This document shows, piece after piece, positions 25,162 to 33,607 of a stretch of 64,000 nucleotides of DNA. The translations under genes and the position numbers were made by a program. Each line of letters starts with the position of its first letter. The first letter of the stretch is position 1. The DNA comes from Candidatus Bathyarchaeota archaeon. GTDB taxonomy: Archaea; Thermoproteota; Bathyarchaeia; 40CM-2-53-6; DTGE01. Under the pieces are notes generated by a model. That model was not told where the DNA came from. It did no database searches and saw only the letters and a program-made list of their open reading frames with translations. The DNA is taken from NCBI GenBank assembly GCA_018396725.1, contig JAGTRC010000002.1, positions 62,001 to 126,000 of the forward strand. The letters run 5' to 3'.

Positions 25162-27654
25162 TTAAGGGGAGATCCCAAACCGGTTGGCTTTGCCGTCCGG
25201 GCGTCTATCCCTGATCGACCCATCCCCCCTTTGGATTGCCACCTCCAACTCCTTCTCTCCGTCCTCGACCCTTAGATCCTCTACCTTGCACACTTTAGCC
25301 ACATAGCCTTTATGCCTCATCAACACCCCCCTCTTGAAGGGTTCCGAGGACTTCACCACAGCCGATGGAACCTGTTCCCTTAGGGAGATCCTCTCCTCAG
25401 CCTTAGCCCTCCTCAGGGTTGAAATGGCCTCTATCAGGATGTCCCCCTCCGCCTCAGCCTCCTCATCTATAAGCTCTTCCCTCGGGGTCGGCCAGCCCGT
25501 GAGATGTATGCTTACAGGGTCATCCTCAGCCTTCAACATCTGGTAGAGCGTCTCAGTTATGTACGGGCATATGGGCGCGAGCATCTTCAGTACCGCTGTG
25601 AGGACTCTCTTTAAGGTGTACTGGGCTGCCTTTCTACTCTCCACGGGGGATTCGCCGTATAATCTATGCTTCACAGCCTCCAAGTATTGATCGCATAGGA
25701 TATGCCACGTGAAACCCCTCAGGGATTCCAGGGCCACGTTGAATTGATAAGACTCATAGGCCTCTGTTACCCTGCGTATAAGCCTCTCGAGCTTTGAAAG
25801 CATCCATAAGTCCAGGATTTCAGGCTTGCCCGGCTCATCATCGTAGCCTCTTAGATTGGAGAGGATGAAGCGGGATGCGTTCCAGAGCTTCGTCAGGAAC
25901 TTCCTCCCGTACTCCAGGTCGCTCCATTTGAAGGGTATGTCGTTGCCGGTAGCCCCTCCCGCTGCGGCCCACTGCCTCAAAGCATCGGCGCCGTATCGAT
26001 CCAGCACCTCTCCAGCCTCCACGTAGTTGCCGTAGGATTTATGCATCATCCTTCCATCGGCCCCCCTAACCATGCCGTTCACCAGCACCCTCTTATAGGG
26101 GGCCCTACCGAACAATGCTAGATGCCTCACCATCAAATAATAGTCCCACGTCCTGATTATGTCTAAGCCGTTGGGCTGGAGGTCCGCGGGGAAGAGCCTC
26201 ATGAAGCCTTCGGGGTCGTCAGGCCACCCCGCGTGGACGGCGCAGGTTATGGATGAATCCATCCAAGTATCCATGACGTCCTTCTCCCCCTCAAACTCTT
26301 GGGAGCCGCATCTGGGGCATCGCTCAACCTTAGGCCTCTCGAACCTGGGATCAACTGGGAGCCAGTCCTCCTCGGCCACTATGATCTCCCCACAGCCTTT
26401 ACAGTACCATACCGGTATCGGAGTTGCGAAGATCCTCTGCCTTGAGATCACCCAGTCCCAGTCCAGCGATGTAGCCCAGTCTATGAGCCTCCTCTTGGCG
26501 TGCTCAGGTATCCACTCCACCTTTTCAGCCCACTCTAAAACCTCGCCAGTCATCTCCAGGGTCTTCATGAACCATTGCATCCTCGTCAGTATCTCTATAG
26601 GGGTATGACATCTCCAGCAGGTTCCGATGTTTTGGAGGAGCCTCTCCCTCCTCTCGATAAGCCCCTCCTCATCCAGGGCCTTTAGGATCGATTCCCTAGC
26701 TTCCTCGATGGTTAACCCCTCGTATTTTCCTGCATTACCCGTCATGCGGCCGTCCTCGCCGATCACGTTTATGACCGGCAGGTTATGCCTCTTCTGCCAT
26801 TTCACGTCAGTTTTATCCCCGAAGGTGCAGACCATCACCACGCCCGTGCCGAAGCTAGGATCCACCTCTGAATCCGCTATGACGGGCACCCTCCTCCCAT
26901 ACAAGGGGACCTCAACCGCCTCGCCGCGCAGATCTTTGTAACGATCATCGTCGGGGTGTACCGCCACCGCCACACAGGCTGGCAGGAGCTCGGGCCTAGT
27001 GGTGGCTATTGGAAGCTTCCCCCCTCCCGCCGTCTTGAATGTAATGTAGTTTAGGGAGCCCTCCCGGGTTATATACTCCACCTCGGCTTCGGCGATGGCG
27101 GTTTCACATCTAGGACACCAGTTGACCGGATGCTCCCCCCTATATAATTTCCCCATCCTGTATAGTAGGATGAAGGATAGCTGGGTCAGCCTATAATACC
27201 CGGGATCCATAGTTCTATACTCCAGGCTCCAATCTATCGAATATCCTATACGCTTCATCGAAGCCTTCATGTTCTCAATGTACTCCTCGGTTAACCTGAT
27301 GCAGAGCTCCTTAAACTTTTCAATGGGGAGGTCCTTCTTCCTCACATTGTGGAGGATCTCGGCGCGAACCTCTGTTGGGAGGCCATGGCAGTCCCAGCCC
27401 TGGGGGAAGTGGACGTTGAAGCCCCTCATCCTCTTATATCTAGCTACAAAGTCTATGTAGCACCAGTTTAACGCGTTCCCCATGTGGAACTCTCCACTGG
27501 GATAAGGTGGGGGCGTGTCTATGGAGTAGGTTGGCTTAGCCCTATCTGTCCTGTCGAAGGCGTTAACCTTCCAGCGATCCCATAGCTTCCCCCATTCATC
27601 CTCATATCTCTTGAAGTCGTATCTAGTTGGGAGGGTTAACTCAGCCAATGGCAT
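25162..27654 (-). CDS. valS: Valyl-tRNA synthetase
   Basis: 830 residues. Class I signature HIGH appears as FHMGNAL with the WCYIDFVARYKRMRG segment typical of ValRS; editing domain with TTRPELLPACVAVAVHPDD; zinc pairs CKGC and CPRC; KMSKS appears as MMHKSYGN; C-terminal anticodon-binding helices. Charges tRNA-Val. Slightly shorter than bacterial ValRS because the C-terminal coiled coil is missing, as usual in archaea. The membrane protein gene follows it closely. Confidence 0.95.
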   Translation of the reverse strand: MPLAELTLPTRYDFKRYEDEWGKLWDRWKVNAFDRTDRAKPTYSIDTPPPYPSGEFHMGNALNWCYIDFVARYKRMRGFNVHFPQGWDCHGLPTEVRAEILHNVRKKDLPIEKFKELCIRLTEEYIENMKASMKRIGYSIDWSLEYRTMDPGYYRLTQLSFILLYRMGKLYRGEHPVNWCPRCETAIAEAEVEYITREGSLNYITFKTAGGGKLPIATTRPELLPACVAVAVHPDDDRYKDLRGEAVEVPLYGRRVPVIADSEVDPSFGTGVVMVCTFGDKTDVKWQKRHNLPVINVIGEDGRMTGNAGKYEGLTIEEARESILKALDEEGLIERRERLLQNIGTCWRCHTPIEILTRMQWFMKTLEMTGEVLEWAEKVEWIPEHAKRRLIDWATSLDWDWVISRQRIFATPIPVWYCKGCGEIIVAEEDWLPVDPRFERPKVERCPRCGSQEFEGEKDVMDTWMDSSITCAVHAGWPDDPEGFMRLFPADLQPNGLDIIRTWDYYLMVRHLALFGRAPYKRVLVNGMVRGADGRMMHKSYGNYVEAGEVLDRYGADALRQWAAAGGATGNDIPFKWSDLEYGRKFLTKLWNASRFILSNLRGYDDEPGKPEILDLWMLSKLERLIRRVTEAYESYQFNVALESLRGFTWHILCDQYLEAVKHRLYGESPVESRKAAQYTLKRVLTAVLKMLAPICPYITETLYQMLKAEDDPVSIHLTGWPTPREELIDEEAEAEGDILIEAISTLRRAKAEERISLREQVPSAVVKSSEPFKRGVLMRHKGYVAKVCKVEDLRVEDGEKELEVAIQRGDGSIRDRRPDGKANRFGISP

Positions 27655-27684
27655 TCACCAGTGGACCATCAACCTCAGCCTTAG

Positions 27685-28797
27685 TTAAAATCCGGTCCAA
27701 TACTTAAAAACCTCCCCATCAAGCTTGAGCGCCCCCGTGCACACGTCCCGATGCTCCATGCACGAATCATACTTTCTTTCTTTTCCTCCTCTCCTCAGCT
27801 TTCCATAGGCCTTCCAGAGGAGCCTTATCCATCCCAGGAATCCTAGAAAAATCGTGGCTACGTAGATCGCCGCTTCTAATCCCGTGAATAATTGGGTGTT
27901 GAGCGTCTTCGCCACATCCCATACGTAACTGTAGTAGTTGAAGAACCAGTGGAGTAGTATCGAGGCATGGATCCCCCTCCACAAGTATATGAGCGCTAAG
28001 GCCATCCCCGCCAGGGCGGCGCTGGATATTTTCCCTACATCCCATCCGCCGCCCGCGATGTAGTGGACGGCCCCAAAGAAGGCCGAGGACGCGGCCGCGG
28101 CCACCCATTCAGGCTTGGCCACCCCTTTAAGCCCGTCTCCCTGGATGTTGGGGAGGCCTAGGACCTCCTTACCCTTATCCGGCCACAAAATTGAGAGCAG
28201 AGCCTCTCGAGGCTTACCGTACTTAATCAAGTATAAGGCCGTCACGGTGCCTATGGGTGTAAGCCTGAAGCCTATCTCCTCGGCCACAGGAGAGTAAGCC
28301 AAGGATAGTAGCCCACTGTATGGGTTTGGAAAGCTTATGGACCCCGTGGGTATGCCTATGGATTCCTGGATGCCCTGGAGCGCTGATACTAGGATTAGGA
28401 GCATCCCTGATGCCGTGGGCATGAATAACAGCCAGTTTTCGGAGAAACTCGAGAACCCCATCCAAGGCTTGCGGATGGCCCCCATAAAGCCCCTCCCAAT
28501 CCTCGCCGAAGCCCATAGAGATGCGAAGTAAACTATGGTTAGCGATGCGAAGAGGAAGGCTCTACCGACCCTGAAAGGGGTGGAGAACATGATCATATAG
28601 GATATGAAATATACCTGCGTTGGATGCTTCAGGTATTCGAGTCCGAGCCGCGGCTCATACATTACATAGATGCCTAGGAGAAGGGAGAAGGGATACGTGA
28701 ACGCTATGAAGAGAGATGCCGCTAAAACAGCGGCCTTAAGCAGGGATATAGCTGTGCCATATCCAGCCCCTTCGGAAGGATCAGCGATCAAATCCAT
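27685..28797 (-). CDS. CPBP-type intramembrane metalloprotease
   Basis: 370 residues, about eight transmembrane helices. The CAAX/CPBP motifs are EEIGFR (EExxxR), FGAVHYIAG (FxxxH) and LHWFFNYY (HxxxN), so the active site is complete. These membrane proteases process prenylated or other membrane proteins; substrate unknown here. It precedes valS on the same strand with a 30-base gap. Confidence 0.82.
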   Translation of the reverse strand: MDLIADPSEGAGYGTAISLLKAAVLAASLFIAFTYPFSLLLGIYVMYEPRLGLEYLKHPTQVYFISYMIMFSTPFRVGRAFLFASLTIVYFASLWASARIGRGFMGAIRKPWMGFSSFSENWLLFMPTASGMLLILVSALQGIQESIGIPTGSISFPNPYSGLLSLAYSPVAEEIGFRLTPIGTVTALYLIKYGKPREALLSILWPDKGKEVLGLPNIQGDGLKGVAKPEWVAAAASSAFFGAVHYIAGGGWDVGKISSAALAGMALALIYLWRGIHASILLHWFFNYYSYVWDVAKTLNTQLFTGLEAAIYVATIFLGFLGWIRLLWKAYGKLRRGGKERKYDSCMEHRDVCTGALKLDGEVFKYWTGF

Positions 28798-28847
28798 CTA
28801 AAAAAAGAGTTAACCCAAGTTTAATTTAACGGTTGATCCTTTTATCC

Positions 28848-30056
28848 TCAGCAGACGGGTATCTTACCTTCTATCAGTTCCATGCAGAACTCGTCTATGC
28901 TCTCCAGCTTCGCATCTATTATGTCGTGGACCTCCCTTGAAACCTCTTTGAGCGAAGTGTTCTTCTCAAGGATCAGCTCCGCCGAGGCTATCATGGGCTG
29001 GTCTATGGGCCTCCCTATCTGGCTTACGAGCCATACATATGCTTCGGAGATCCCCGGAACCCTCTCGTATATCTCTCTGGCCAGCCTATACGAGAGGAGG
29101 TTATATATCTTCCCTACGTGGCTTACGGGGTTCTTGCCGGCTGCAGCCTCTGAGCTCGCAGGCCTGTTCAAGGGGATTATCCCGTTGGCGCGGTTGCCCC
29201 TCCCCACCTGGCCGCAATCCCCGTCGTCGGCGGATGTACCCAGCACGGTCAGGTATATCCCCCTCATATCCCTCCCCTTCTCGTCCAGGGTATTCAGGTC
29301 CACCGTGACGGATTCCATATCCGTCCTCGGGGAGATGAAGGATAAGATCTCCTCTAGGACCTCGCCCTTCTTCCTGAAGTAGTCCTCCTCGCTCTTAACA
29401 TACTTATCTACGAAGGCCATCGCCACGGTTAGATGTAGATCGTTTCTACGCCTTACACCCATCACCTTCACGTCTTCGCCGGTTTCAGGGTGATCTCTCT
29501 TAAACTCGTCGGAGTTCAAGTATCTCTCGAGCTCTAGGACGGTTATCTCCGTCTCCGTGAGGGGGTAGAACCCGACCGCTGCCGAGGTGTCGTTGGATGG
29601 AAGCCTACCCGGGCCGCGTTCAAATATGTCCCTTAGGGCTTCGGATCCCCTCTTGATCTCCACCTGGTACCTCACATGCTCCTCGGGATCTACGAAGCGC
29701 ATGTTCTCCCTGAACCATCTCTTAGCCGTCTCCCTGGCTATCTCCTCTATGGGGACCTCCGCGTCGTCCACTTGGAAGGTGGCCCTGTCCCCTATGACCA
29801 GGAGCATGGGCTTTAAAACCCTGCCCCCTCCAAACTTCCTCTCAACCTCGCCTGCCACGAGGAGCCCCTTATCGATGTTATAGTGCATTATCCTGCCGAA
29901 CCTTTTCAGATACTCCTTTGAGAGGGCCACTGATATATCGTTCAGGATTAGATCGCATATAGTGTCTGGGTGACCTATCCCTTTACGCTCGCATATCTCT
30001 ATGGGTTGATCCCTTACAGGCGTCTGCTTCAGGGTGTTTACGAATATGTTCCTCAT
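28848..30056 (-). CDS. mat: S-adenosylmethionine synthetase, archaeal type
   Basis: 402 residues. ERKGIGHPDTICDLI, GDCGQVGRGNRANGIIP and GKNPVSHVGKIYN are hallmarks of the archaeal MAT family, which differs strongly from MetK. Makes SAM from methionine and ATP. It is transcribed divergently from an HTH-CBS regulator, with an 18-bp palindrome between them (30133-30150) and a TATA-like TAAATTATTATTTT on the way (about 30107-30120). SAM demand in the window is high (radical-SAM lipid synthase, methyltransferases), and SAH hydrolase is encoded at 49.4 kb. Confidence 0.95.
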   Translation of the reverse strand: MRNIFVNTLKQTPVRDQPIEICERKGIGHPDTICDLILNDISVALSKEYLKRFGRIMHYNIDKGLLVAGEVERKFGGGRVLKPMLLVIGDRATFQVDDAEVPIEEIARETAKRWFRENMRFVDPEEHVRYQVEIKRGSEALRDIFERGPGRLPSNDTSAAVGFYPLTETEITVLELERYLNSDEFKRDHPETGEDVKVMGVRRRNDLHLTVAMAFVDKYVKSEEDYFRKKGEVLEEILSFISPRTDMESVTVDLNTLDEKGRDMRGIYLTVLGTSADDGDCGQVGRGNRANGIIPLNRPASSEAAAGKNPVSHVGKIYNLLSYRLAREIYERVPGISEAYVWLVSQIGRPIDQPMIASAELILEKNTSLKEVSREVHDIIDAKLESIDEFCMELIEGKIPVC

Positions 30057-30132
30057 ACTGCTCCCTTCATCAGGTTTATTGGAGACGAGGCTATTGAGGC
30101 AAAGCTTAAATTATTATTTTATGCTGTCAAAA

Positions 30133-30150
30133 ATATTCCTATAGGAATAT
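30133..30150. promoter_or_regulatory. 18-bp perfect palindrome, probable operator of the HTH-CBS regulator
   Basis: ATATTCCTATAGGAATAT reads identically on both strands. It lies 31 bases before the TTG start of the HTH-CBS gene, where RNA polymerase would assemble, and 76 bases before the mat start on the other side. A dimeric helix-turn-helix protein is encoded next door, so this is the natural site for autoregulation and control of mat. Confidence 0.6.
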
Positions 30151-30181
30151 GGATGACGGCGGCTTGGAGATGATCGCGTAG

Positions 30182-30751
30182 TTGCCCCTCCCGTCCCTCG
30201 AGGAGATCGCTAAGCGTAGGAGAAGCCTCGGATTGAACCAGAGGGAGCTGGCGAGGCTCTCAGGGGTGAGCCAATCCTTCATCGCGAAGATAGAGACGGG
30301 TAGGATAAACCCCTCCTACGGGTTAGCCAAGGCCCTATTCGACGTTCTGGAGAGGCTGGAGTCAAAGGAGGAGTTGAAGGCCGCAGACGTTATGCATCCA
30401 AACGTGACCGGCATAGACAGCGGCGCGAAGATCTCCGAGGCCTCAGGGCTTATGAGCGAGACGGGGTATTCGCAGCTCCCGGTCTACAAGGAGGGGAGGG
30501 TCGTGGGTAGTATAACTGAGGGCACCATCATAAGCGCTATGCTGAAGGTCAGGGATCCCCTGAGCCTGTCGGAGATGACTGTGGAGGAGATCATGGAGGA
30601 ATCTTTCCCCATGGTGGACGGCTCAACCCCTGTGAACCTGGTCTCCACCCTGCTGAGATATACACCGGCCGTCCTCGTAACCATTAAAGGGGAGGTTAAA
30701 GGCATAATAACCAAGGCGGACCTGTTAAAGATCGTTAGGGGGCCATCCTAG
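30182..30751 (+). CDS. HTH (XRE-type) plus CBS-pair transcriptional regulator
   Basis: 189 residues. XRE helix-turn-helix at about 10-60 (LNQRELARLSGVSQSFIAKIE), then two CBS motifs (DVMHPNVTGID... and EIMEESFPMVDGS...). Starts with TTG 30182; GGAGATGA upstream is a weak ribosome-binding site. CBS pairs bind adenosyl ligands such as AMP, ATP, SAM or methylthioadenosine, and this gene is divergent from SAM synthetase; a SAM-sensing repressor is an attractive inference. The convergent GTPase gene ends only 3 bases beyond its stop. Confidence 0.88.
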   Translation: MPLPSLEEIAKRRRSLGLNQRELARLSGVSQSFIAKIETGRINPSYGLAKALFDVLERLESKEELKAADVMHPNVTGIDSGAKISEASGLMSETGYSQLPVYKEGRVVGSITEGTIISAMLKVRDPLSLSEMTVEEIMEESFPMVDGSTPVNLVSTLLRYTPAVLVTIKGEVKGIITKADLLKIVRGPS

Positions 30752-30754
30752 ACT

Positions 30755-31969
30755 TTAGCTCCTCCTCATGGCGGATACTATGTGGATTATGTCCCGGTCC
30801 CTAAGCCTATACTCCACTGGGAGCCGCAGCCCCGTCCTCGCGTCCACGGCGTAGAGGAGGCCCTTGGCCAGGTCGGTATGTATCTGGGCTGCGAGGTCCT
30901 TAACGGTGGCTTCGGGAGGAGTTAGGAAGGCGTCGGGTAGGACCTTTCCTTCCTTATCAGATAGGCTGCTTAAATCCTCCACTGGGTATACTACGTTCAT
31001 GCCCAAGAGTTTAAATGCGCACATGTTTAAGGCGAATTGAACGCCTGTCCTTATCCATTTTGAGAGCACCCTGCTTTGGACGTAGCTTAGGGCCCACCTC
31101 TGCTCCTTGGTTAGCAGGCCCTCCTCGACGACCTTGAAGGCCTCCTCCCCAGGCACATACTTTATCAGGCCCTGGCTTTCAGCCCTCCTAAGGGCTAGCT
31201 CTGCTTCGCTGCTAGCCGGGATAACTATACGGTCGCCGAAGGCTTCCGTCAAGCGTTGATAGTTCTCCTCAGCCTTGGCTAGATCCATCTTATTAGCCAC
31301 TATTATCGTGGGCTTGGAGATCTCCCTTACCCTCCTGGCGAACTCTATGGTATCCTCCTCACCCCAAGAGTCGAAAGGTTTACCAGCTAACCCAGCTAAC
31401 TCCAAGGCGTGTTCAACGTGGATCCTCTTCACCTTTAACCCTGCCAAGGTCCGGGTTAAAGCCGAGGCTGGAGAGGCCCCGCCGTCCCGTATATCCTTTA
31501 TAATCTGTTTCTGGCTTCTCTTTATGATGTCGGCGAACCATAGGATTATCTCGGTCTCAACATCGTATACGTCAGCGACGGGGTTCCCCATCCCGGGCTT
31601 TGTTATCCTACCCTCCGCGTCCACGCTGCCCGATGCATCTACTATGTGAAGCAGCGCATCGGCCTGTCCTATAACCCCGAGGAACTGGGTTCCCAAGCCT
31701 CGACCCTTATGAGCCCCCTTTATGAGCCCTGGGAGATCCATCACCTCCACAGGTATGAAACGCCACCCGTCGATGCAGAGGCTGTTCCTCGGATCATCTT
31801 TAACCCCTAACTCCCTGCAGACGCATATGGATTGGACATATGCACGGCCTATATTGGGCTTCTTCGTCGTGAAGGGGTAGGTTGAGACCTCGGCTGACAT
31901 AAGGGTTGAGGCGTTGAAGAAGGTAGTCTTACCTGTGTTGGTCTTCCCCACCAATCCTATACGGATCAA
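30755..31969 (-). CDS. OBG/YchF-related GTPase with C-terminal TGS domain
   Basis: 404 residues. G1 GKTNTGKTTFF (GxxxxGKT), G3 DLPGLIKGAHKGRGLG, G4 NKMD; an inserted helical segment after G3 and a C-terminal TGS domain (about 320-400). This is the archaeal YchF-like branch (COG0012-type). Such proteins bind ribosomes and ATP/GTP. The family is clear, the cellular role less so. Likely leaderless; upstream region is short. Confidence 0.9.
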   Translation of the reverse strand: MIRIGLVGKTNTGKTTFFNASTLMSAEVSTYPFTTKKPNIGRAYVQSICVCRELGVKDDPRNSLCIDGWRFIPVEVMDLPGLIKGAHKGRGLGTQFLGVIGQADALLHIVDASGSVDAEGRITKPGMGNPVADVYDVETEIILWFADIIKRSQKQIIKDIRDGGASPASALTRTLAGLKVKRIHVEHALELAGLAGKPFDSWGEEDTIEFARRVREISKPTIIVANKMDLAKAEENYQRLTEAFGDRIVIPASSEAELALRRAESQGLIKYVPGEEAFKVVEEGLLTKEQRWALSYVQSRVLSKWIRTGVQFALNMCAFKLLGMNVVYPVEDLSSLSDKEGKVLPDAFLTPPEATVKDLAAQIHTDLAKGLLYAVDARTGLRLPVEYRLRDRDIIHIVSAMRRS

Positions 31970-32086
31970 CAGCGTTTCCTCGATGAGGGAAAAGGGTGAA
32001 ACTAGGTTATGAACTTATCTAGTAACCGGGTAAGTTGACGTGAGCTGGGCTATTAGAGTAGGCGCCTCTCCCAAATGGATGTCAGC

Positions 32087-33607
32087 CTACCTGGCTTGGG
32101 CCCCCTCACCGGAGGAGCTTTTAAGCCATTCCTCGTAGGATTTGGAGAACTTGGCTTCCAATTCCCTTCTATGCAGCGTGTTGTATGAGCAGAAGGGGCG
32201 GATGGTTCCGTCGGGTAGGCCGTAATGGATAGGGCATCTCTGAACCCTCTGCAGGTCGAAGTTGTAGGGATCCATGAAGTGCATACAGCCTATCATTAAT
32301 ATTCTTCTCATGAAGCTTCCTAGGGCGTCGTAGCTTCCATCCCTTAGCACGGGCCAGAGCACATTCCTTATGAAATCCGCCTTGACGTGCCTCAGGGAGG
32401 TTAGGATCCGCATCCTAGCGGAGAACCTCTTCCCCTTCTCAGCATCCTCAGCCGCTTTCAGCATGGCCTCGAAGAACTTATCCACGTCAGCCAGCCTCGT
32501 TATGGGGATCCAGCTTCCATCGTTCCTTTGAACCATGAAGGTGGCTACGCCGCACCATGGGGCTGTTGAGAACTCCACGTATCGCCTGCCCTTCAACGCG
32601 CCTACCGCCCTTGAGATCGGGATCACCGAGGGGACGGGCCTGAAATCCGAGGCTTTGATGAGACCGCCGGTCTGGGATTCAACTAGCTTCATGAAGTCCG
32701 TGGTGTTTATCCTCATGGCCTCCCTCGACTCTCTATCTATCCTCCCTGTTATGGAGACCGGTTGTACATTGACACATCTCACCACATCGGAGTTCTCCAT
32801 TGCGAAACGTATTATGTCGCCTATCTGATGGTCGTTGAATCCCTTTACGAGGGTCACCACGAGGACTATGCTCTCTAATCCTATCTTTCTAGCGTTCTCC
32901 AAGACTTTAAGCTTCACCCTGGTTAACGGTACGCCCCTGGATCTCCCGTAGATCCCGTCGTCTAGGCCGTCGAATTGAAGGTATATGGTGTCCATCCCCT
33001 CTTTTAGGCAACGCCCCATGAATTCCAAGTCGTTGGCGAACCTTATCCCATTCGTATTGACCTCTACGTGCTCGAAACCCAGCCTCTTCGCCATGGCTAT
33101 TAGTTCGGGTAGGTCGTCCCTTACGGTCGGTTCCCCGCCGCTGAATTGCAGGGCGGGGGGTGGAACAGGTCTTGTAGCCCTCAAGTTCTTCATTATGTCT
33201 TCTATCTGCTTCATCGTGGGTTCATAGATGTATCCTGCGGCGGCTGCATTCGCAAAGCATATGGGGCACCTGAGGTTGCATCTATTCGTTACGTCTATGA
33301 TAGCTAAGACCGTCTGGGATCTATGCTGGGGGCATACGCCGCAGTCGTAGGGGCAGCCCATAATGGTCTCCGTGCGGGGGTTTTCAGGTTTAACCCCTTC
33401 ATAGGCGTAGCCCTCAGCCCATCTGTAAAGCGTGGGGTCTGAGAAGGTGTAAGTATCCTCGTAGTATCCATGTTCAGTACAGGTCTTACCTATCTTTACT
33501 AGGCCGGACTCATCGGTGAAGACCTGAGCGGGGACGACCTTGAGGCACTCAGGGCAGAGGCTTTCAGTGCTCCTCAGGATCTGTATCTGGGCGCTCTTCT
33601 CGAGCAA
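32087..33607 (-). CDS. tes: Tetraether lipid synthase, radical SAM (Tes)
   Basis: 506 residues. Radical-SAM core motif CNLRCPICF (C110, C114, C117) and three further cysteine sets typical of Tes/MJ0619: C18/C21/C43 in the N-terminal region, CPYDCGVCPQH (C85, C89, C92), and C-terminal cysteines (CMHF, CPIH, CSYN). Tes joins the phytanyl tails of two archaeol units to make membrane-spanning glycerol dialkyl glycerol tetraether lipids, as shown for the methanogen enzyme. Membership rests on motif order and length. Presence implies a tetraether membrane, in line with a thermophilic or TACK archaeon. Inositol-phosphate synthase lies 1.6 kb away. Confidence 0.85.
   Translation of the reverse strand: MLEKSAQIQILRSTESLCPECLKVVPAQVFTDESGLVKIGKTCTEHGYYEDTYTFSDPTLYRWAEGYAYEGVKPENPRTETIMGCPYDCGVCPQHRSQTVLAIIDVTNRCNLRCPICFANAAAAGYIYEPTMKQIEDIMKNLRATRPVPPPALQFSGGEPTVRDDLPELIAMAKRLGFEHVEVNTNGIRFANDLEFMGRCLKEGMDTIYLQFDGLDDGIYGRSRGVPLTRVKLKVLENARKIGLESIVLVVTLVKGFNDHQIGDIIRFAMENSDVVRCVNVQPVSITGRIDRESREAMRINTTDFMKLVESQTGGLIKASDFRPVPSVIPISRAVGALKGRRYVEFSTAPWCGVATFMVQRNDGSWIPITRLADVDKFFEAMLKAAEDAEKGKRFSARMRILTSLRHVKADFIRNVLWPVLRDGSYDALGSFMRRILMIGCMHFMDPYNFDLQRVQRCPIHYGLPDGTIRPFCSYNTLHRRELEAKFSKSYEEWLKSSSGEGAQAR

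Follow-up and report, generated by a model that had tools for sequence, protein, structure and literature searches.

What controls the synthesis of S-adenosylmethionine (SAM) in archaea, and might the small protein encoded back to back with a SAM synthetase in a bathyarchaeal genome be part of the answer? The locus that raises this question lies in a 64,000-nucleotide stretch of a Candidatus Bathyarchaeota genome (the window, to which all coordinates refer), in which the gene of a 189-aa protein with an HTH_3 domain and two CBS motifs (30182..30751, plus strand; the regulator hereafter) diverges from its predicted target mat, the archaeal S-adenosylmethionine synthetase gene (28848..30056, minus strand; AdoMet_Synthase PF01941, E 3e-167). 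A preliminary description had proposed that this HTH-CBS protein is a SAM-sensing repressor acting through an 18-bp perfect palindrome between the two genes; the open reading frames and Pfam domains are as it claimed, and the palindrome is confirmed at 30133-30150. The DNA-binding domain (30206..30349, plus strand; aa 9-56; Pfam HTH_3, E 3e-12), in which VSQS-IAK-E is nearly invariant in the orthologue alignment, is followed by a Pfam CBS match in two stretches (E 2e-18). CBS motif 1 (30383..30544, plus strand) contains GYSQLPV (Y96, S97, Q98) where human CBS has GFDQAPV, with T115 replacing the ribose Asp, and CBS motif 2 (30581..30739, plus strand) contains GIITKAD, whose T177 and D180 correspond to T535 and D538 of human CBS. 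Pfam and NCBIfam matches were to HTH_3/XRE and CBS families, with none to the MetJ family, and the AlphaFold2 model is confident (mean pLDDT 93.5) and consists of a helical head and a CBS pair.

The regulator starts with the TTG at 30182, immediately after an in-frame TAG, and we place the start there because orthologues beginning M-L-P align at this codon. An upstream ATG (30149), the start if the TAG were read through, was rejected since the orthologues align from the TTG. In the 5' leader (30151..30181, plus strand), this in-frame ATG, which overlaps the palindrome, and the TAG (30179-30181) directly preceding the TTG delimit an open reading frame of 10 codons. A YchF-type GTPase gene (30755..31969, minus strand) is convergent with the regulator and is a conserved neighbour of the regulator and/or mat; we do not count it as a component of the switch. 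Near mat, several families also retain a gene for a CAAX-protease-like membrane protein (27685-28797 in the window; loci L185, L186, L188, L189, L192, L195 and L197), and the window encodes, about 2 kb from the regulator, the tetraether lipid synthase Tes (32087-33607; NF045702, E 1e-177), a radical-SAM enzyme and one source of SAM demand.

The palindrome, ATATTCCTATAGGAATAT (30133..30150), is unique in the 64-kb window, where 0.02 occurrences are expected at ≤3 mismatches, and its 16-bp core has its sole exact copy in the 1.75-Mb genome here. However, simple calculation predicts about 0.24 perfect 18-bp palindromes, whatever their sequence, per 64 kb, and more in A+T-rich DNA; taken alone, such a palindrome is unremarkable, and conservation is the evidence. 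Orthologues of the regulator occur in about 50 of 61 related genomes, and a scan of named genomes gave 80 regulator loci in Bathyarchaeota, Culexarchaeia, Nitrososphaeria, Methanocellales, Thermoplasmata and several DPANN phyla. The consensus TATTCC-N4-GGAATA, of which the window palindrome is an instance, precedes the regulator gene with ≤1 mismatch in 65 of 108 usable archaeal loci; 84 of these loci have some match upstream of the regulator, and dinucleotide shuffles of those upstream regions gave 0.06. The consensus also occurs at regulators that do not adjoin mat, and its usual position is about 43 nt upstream of the start codon (most sites begin 41-50 nt before that codon); A2, T3, C5, A13 and A14 are invariant in 68/68 aligned sites. 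The operator was absent from its usual place in most Nitrososphaeria loci and in the regulator promoters of family f3. The link between regulator and palindrome is thus strongly supported, far beyond the source genome. Every palindrome can be folded on paper into a hairpin, but an RNA hairpin or terminator, or a chance origin, is exceedingly improbable here, since the arms are kept as sequence (the five invariant positions) without compensatory change, no Rfam family, SAM riboswitches included, matches the locus (27600-32100), and chance is excluded by the shuffles and by the conservation of the site across regulator promoters.

The genes beside the regulator point to the pathway involved. Among the 80 named loci, the adjoining operon is hcyBio (PF01837) in 13, metY-metX-metW in 13, a bacterial-type metK in 11, mat in five (one codirectional), metE in five (three with a metF-like gene, one codirectional) and thrC (threonine synthase) in three, with the gene families verified for representatives. 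SAM synthetases of two Pfam families, archaeal MAT and bacterial-type MetK, are found in this one divergent slot. In a FastTree phylogeny of 91 regulators, at least 28 changes of neighbour label are counted (a rough figure, as many forks are weak), and the regulator therefore appears linked to the pathway and not to one inherited neighbour. The proposed link to SAM synthesis is strongly supported by these loci, and conservation of the regulator-mat pair, which the preliminary description had proposed to check, is seen in part: the pathway link is kept, but the mat pair itself occurs only in some families, and where it is absent another gene of the methionine/SAM pathway replaces mat, while mat keeps its site. 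Genes outside the pathway also occur and count against this link, namely tiaS in ten further loci and a putative cyclase in a few, the latter being the neighbour in family f3. The tiaS gene (tRNA agmatidine synthetase) adjoins the regulator in one large bathyarchaeal clade (L019-L022, L122-L181), and in the four f10/f14 genomes checked among the tiaS-type loci the site is still upstream of mat. Two further observations concern the neighbours: the metY-X-W bathyarchaeal loci repeatedly encode, beside the regulator, a HTH-like protein of 107-119 aa that ends in cysteines and matches no Pfam or NCBIfam family (L133:5499-5855, L128, L117, L137, L138, L141, L143 and L147), and in Diapherotrites CG08 (L173) the metK upstream of the regulator is an 837-aa frame with a long insertion resembling an intein.

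Genomes in which mat lies elsewhere are informative as to whether the site serves more than the regulator gene. In 22 regulator-bearing genomes with non-adjacent mat (many from one genus and hence not all independent, and partly gathered by a second search using the MAT protein), a site lies within 150 nt of mat with ≤2 mismatches in 16 and with ≤1 mismatch in 14, compared with 0.31 and 0.007, respectively, for shuffles; no site was found at mat in the other six. Three genomes without the regulator have no site at mat, and one fragmented assembly (G012; 380 contigs), in which no regulator was detected, has one. In family f2, where metE adjoins the regulator and mat is elsewhere, the site is 61-69 nt upstream of mat in five motif-searched genomes, and one member (G011) has the order mat-site-ychF as in the window, with the regulator missing from between. 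Family f2 also carries sites before metE, ahcY, a rhodanese/mercaptopyruvate sulfurtransferase gene, an aminotransferase gene and the gene of a 585-aa membrane protein; the last (L072, L078, L082 and L085) has two operators back to back near its start in three genomes and one in the fourth, has no Pfam match, and is a candidate methionine/SAM-pathway transporter or membrane enzyme. Both f1 genomes, the source genome included, have a site before thrC.

Genome-wide, the motif exceeds its reversed control clearly in f2/f5 genomes (10 v 0, 15 v 3 and 18 v 1) and by a small margin in the source genome (13 v 6). In the source genome, for which the preliminary description had suggested a scan for the palindrome, there are sites at mat, at thrC (1 mismatch) and, weakly, at hcyBio (3 mismatches), and no site was found before metE or ahcY. 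A regulon of this genome drawn from the motif alone would be weak, most of the one-mismatch sites examined falling inside genes. Across the relatives, several pathway genes (mat, metE, ahcY, rhodanese and thrC) are preceded by the conserved operator, and hcyBio, metY-X-W and metK are tied to it through the intergenic region they have in common with the regulator. It might still be argued that the site controls just the regulator, being fixed in its own promoter also where mat lies elsewhere, with mat a passive neighbour. However, sites are also present at mat, rhodanese, ahcY and thrC genes that are remote from the regulator gene, and the sites at non-adjacent mat largely refute the passive-neighbour view, which we consider very improbable.

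As to what the regulator senses, the fold is of limited help. Other proteins use CBS pairs of the same fold to bind AMP, ADP, ATP, Ap4A or c-di-AMP, and a Foldseek search with the regulator model gave, among the matches listed, CBS pairs only, with ligands including AMP, ADP, c-di-AMP and SAM (human CBS); the ligand therefore cannot be told from the fold alone. When the PDB was searched by sequence and by fold, most matches covered the CBS part or one HTH (highest TM-score among the matches listed, 0.61 by query length), and neither these searches nor the open literature yielded a solved or characterised member with the whole HTH plus CBS-pair architecture. The pocket residues give a closer comparison. 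In the human CBS pocket, the adenine of AdoMet is stacked against Phe443, the methionyl nitrogen is held by Asp444 and the carboxyl by Gln445, and Thr535 and Asp538 hold the carboxyl and ribose, the FDQ motif not being common in other CBS proteins (PMC4276868). Across 78 sequences of the regulator family, position 96 is aromatic in 56, S97 and Q98 are present in all 78, T177 in 76 and D180 in 77. The pair S97-Q98 aligns with Asp444-Gln445 (Ser97 thus replacing the holder of the methionyl nitrogen), T177 and D180 align with T535 and D538, and the ribose Asp is lost from CBS1 in both proteins; the human sequence was checked against PDB chains, and the alignment spans 109 columns with a probability of 95.8. 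The CBS motifs of IMPDH, MJ0100 and HcyBio differ at the Gln98 position (the CBS1-motif comparison covered these three, and a regular expression run on the other CBS proteins of the source genome gave no matches). For the HcyBio enzyme too, control by SAM through a CBS domain has been proposed (PMC12068725).

We therefore regard SAM as the likeliest ligand, given the pathway of the neighbours and the pocket residues in common with human CBS, with MTA, SAH and adenine nucleotides as possible alternatives. One such alternative is an energy or nucleotide sensor, that is, a CBS pair that binds AMP/ADP/ATP (or MTA/SAH) and tunes the ATP-costly synthesis of methionine and SAM. The closest PDB folds listed do include the AMP/ADP-bound CBS proteins DarB, AcuB and SSO3205, and D180 would bind the ribose of any adenosyl ligand. 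However, the invariant Gln98 aligns with Gln445, the methionyl-carboxyl holder within an uncommon motif (PMC4276868), is missing from the IMPDH, MJ0100 and HcyBio motifs, and the neighbours are methionine/SAM genes and not energy genes, all of which makes a nucleotide sensor quite unlikely.

The position of the site relative to the promoters bears on the sign of regulation; all start sites and TATA positions discussed here are predicted. In regulator promoters, the A+T peak expected of a TATA box lies 15-22 bp before the site, which therefore places the predicted start site of the regulator inside the operator. At targets (26 promoters) the order is reversed, the A+T peak following the site by 13-20 bp, and the site is therefore upstream of TATA and BRE at the targets. 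In the window, the two peaks coincide at about 30105-30125, between the site and mat, and the A+T-rich stretch there (TTAAATTATTATTTTATG; 30105..30125) is the predicted location of the TATA elements for the two divergent promoters, its position fitting the A+T peaks of the relatives' promoters. Upstream of TATA is the usual position of archaeal activators, and archaeal repressors usually do not bind there. Autorepression at the regulator's own promoter is thus likely, while the site has an activator-like position at mat, where activation, as read from the geometry alone, is most likely. The earlier view of the protein as a repressor fits the regulator promoter, with the site over the predicted start site, but sits poorly with mat: repression is not the best-supported sign there because the site is 13 bp upstream of TATA, as it is at other targets.

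The strongest competing explanation is a co-repressor switch of the bacterial MetJ type, in which the SAM-loaded protein would bind the palindrome and repress its own gene as well as mat. The SAM synthetase partner together with an AdoMet-like pocket, and the site over the predicted regulator start site, are consistent with it, and genes of this kind are most commonly governed by end-product repression. On the other hand, 13 bp separate the site from a downstream TATA box at mat, rhodanese, thrC, ahcY and metE, leaving it outside both TATA box and start site, and the spacing between site and TATA is constrained; hence, we consider this switch unlikely, although less so than a nucleotide sensor. 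A precedent for divergent regulator and biosynthetic genes with a shared site and autoregulation exists in TrpY of Methanothermobacter and in TrmB-type regulators, and for TrmB the sign depends on whether the site is upstream or downstream of TATA. These systems resemble the present one in logic; the proteins and ligands are unrelated.

The architecture of the protein, the conservation and position of the operator, the pathway context and the pocket residues are established by sequence, and they make it probable, in our judgement, that the regulator is a transcription regulator of the archaeal methionine/SAM cycle that acts from one site as autorepressor and mat activator and is a probable SAM sensor. 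Under this hypothesis, for which we infer dimeric binding, SAM as the ligand and the sign of regulation, a dimer of the XRE-type HTH would bind TATTCC-N4-GGAATA, and the single intergenic site would serve both genes. By covering the predicted start site of the regulator promoter, it would cause autorepression, and from 13 bp upstream of the mat TATA box it would most likely help recruit TBP/TFB and activate transcription, so that mat would be made when SAM is short. The CBS pair of each protomer would most likely bind SAM in a single pocket resembling the AdoMet site of human CBS, and SAM binding would alter DNA binding or activation by the regulator. In relatives, the same protein and site would control hcyBio, metY-X-W, metK, metE, thrC and ahcY.

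Among known systems, the bacterial methionine/SAM transcription factors MetJ, MetR and SahR, whose regulons have been reconstructed (PMC4239095), are likewise local regulators of the methionine/SAM cycle with palindromic operators, probable metabolite sensing in the present case, and the same kinds of targets (metK, metE, metY, metX and ahcY). They differ in being of ribbon-helix-helix, LysR or ArsR type, whereas the regulator is an XRE HTH plus CBS pair with another operator and archaeal TBP/TFB promoters. The regulatory domain of human CBS (PDB 4uuu; PMC4276868) is similar in having GF/YxQxPV in CBS1, GxxTxxD in CBS2 and no CBS1 ribose Asp, but its CBS pair is joined to an enzyme and not to an HTH, it has Asp444 in place of Ser, and SAM binding by the regulator is predicted. 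MJ0100/HcyBio-CBS, an aspartate semialdehyde sulfurtransferase subunit whose CBS pair binds SAM and MTA (cited in PMC12068725), is an archaeal CBS pair of the homocysteine pathway, and the HcyBio gene is a frequent partner of the regulator; however, it is a non-DNA-binding enzyme with Asp in both ribose motifs and His at the Q98 position.

In conclusion, as judged from sequence comparison, the finding stands and is larger than first reported, namely a conserved, predicted archaeal methionine/SAM regulator with a defined operator, and the protein is a strong, apparently undescribed candidate for a feedback switch of the archaeal methionine/SAM pathway. In searches of open-access papers we found neither a methionine regulon of archaea nor a HTH-CBS regulator like the present one, and there is no riboswitch at the locus. 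What is gained is a protein family, a precise operator (TATTCC-N4-GGAATA) and targets in many phyla, including the uncultured Bathyarchaeota and DPANN, as well as two specific residues to mutate, Q98 and D180, which together make the control of this pathway directly testable, and a natural case of one site between two divergent promoters with apparently opposite geometry. More tentatively, and with somewhat more doubt than confidence, the family may represent a widespread, possibly ancient master regulator of archaeal methionine/SAM metabolism, with a human-CBS-like AdoMet pocket on a DNA-binding head and one operator whose sign would be set by the side of TATA on which it lies (autorepressor downstream, activator upstream). 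If true, archaea would have in this master regulator their own counterpart of MetJ and the SAM riboswitches.
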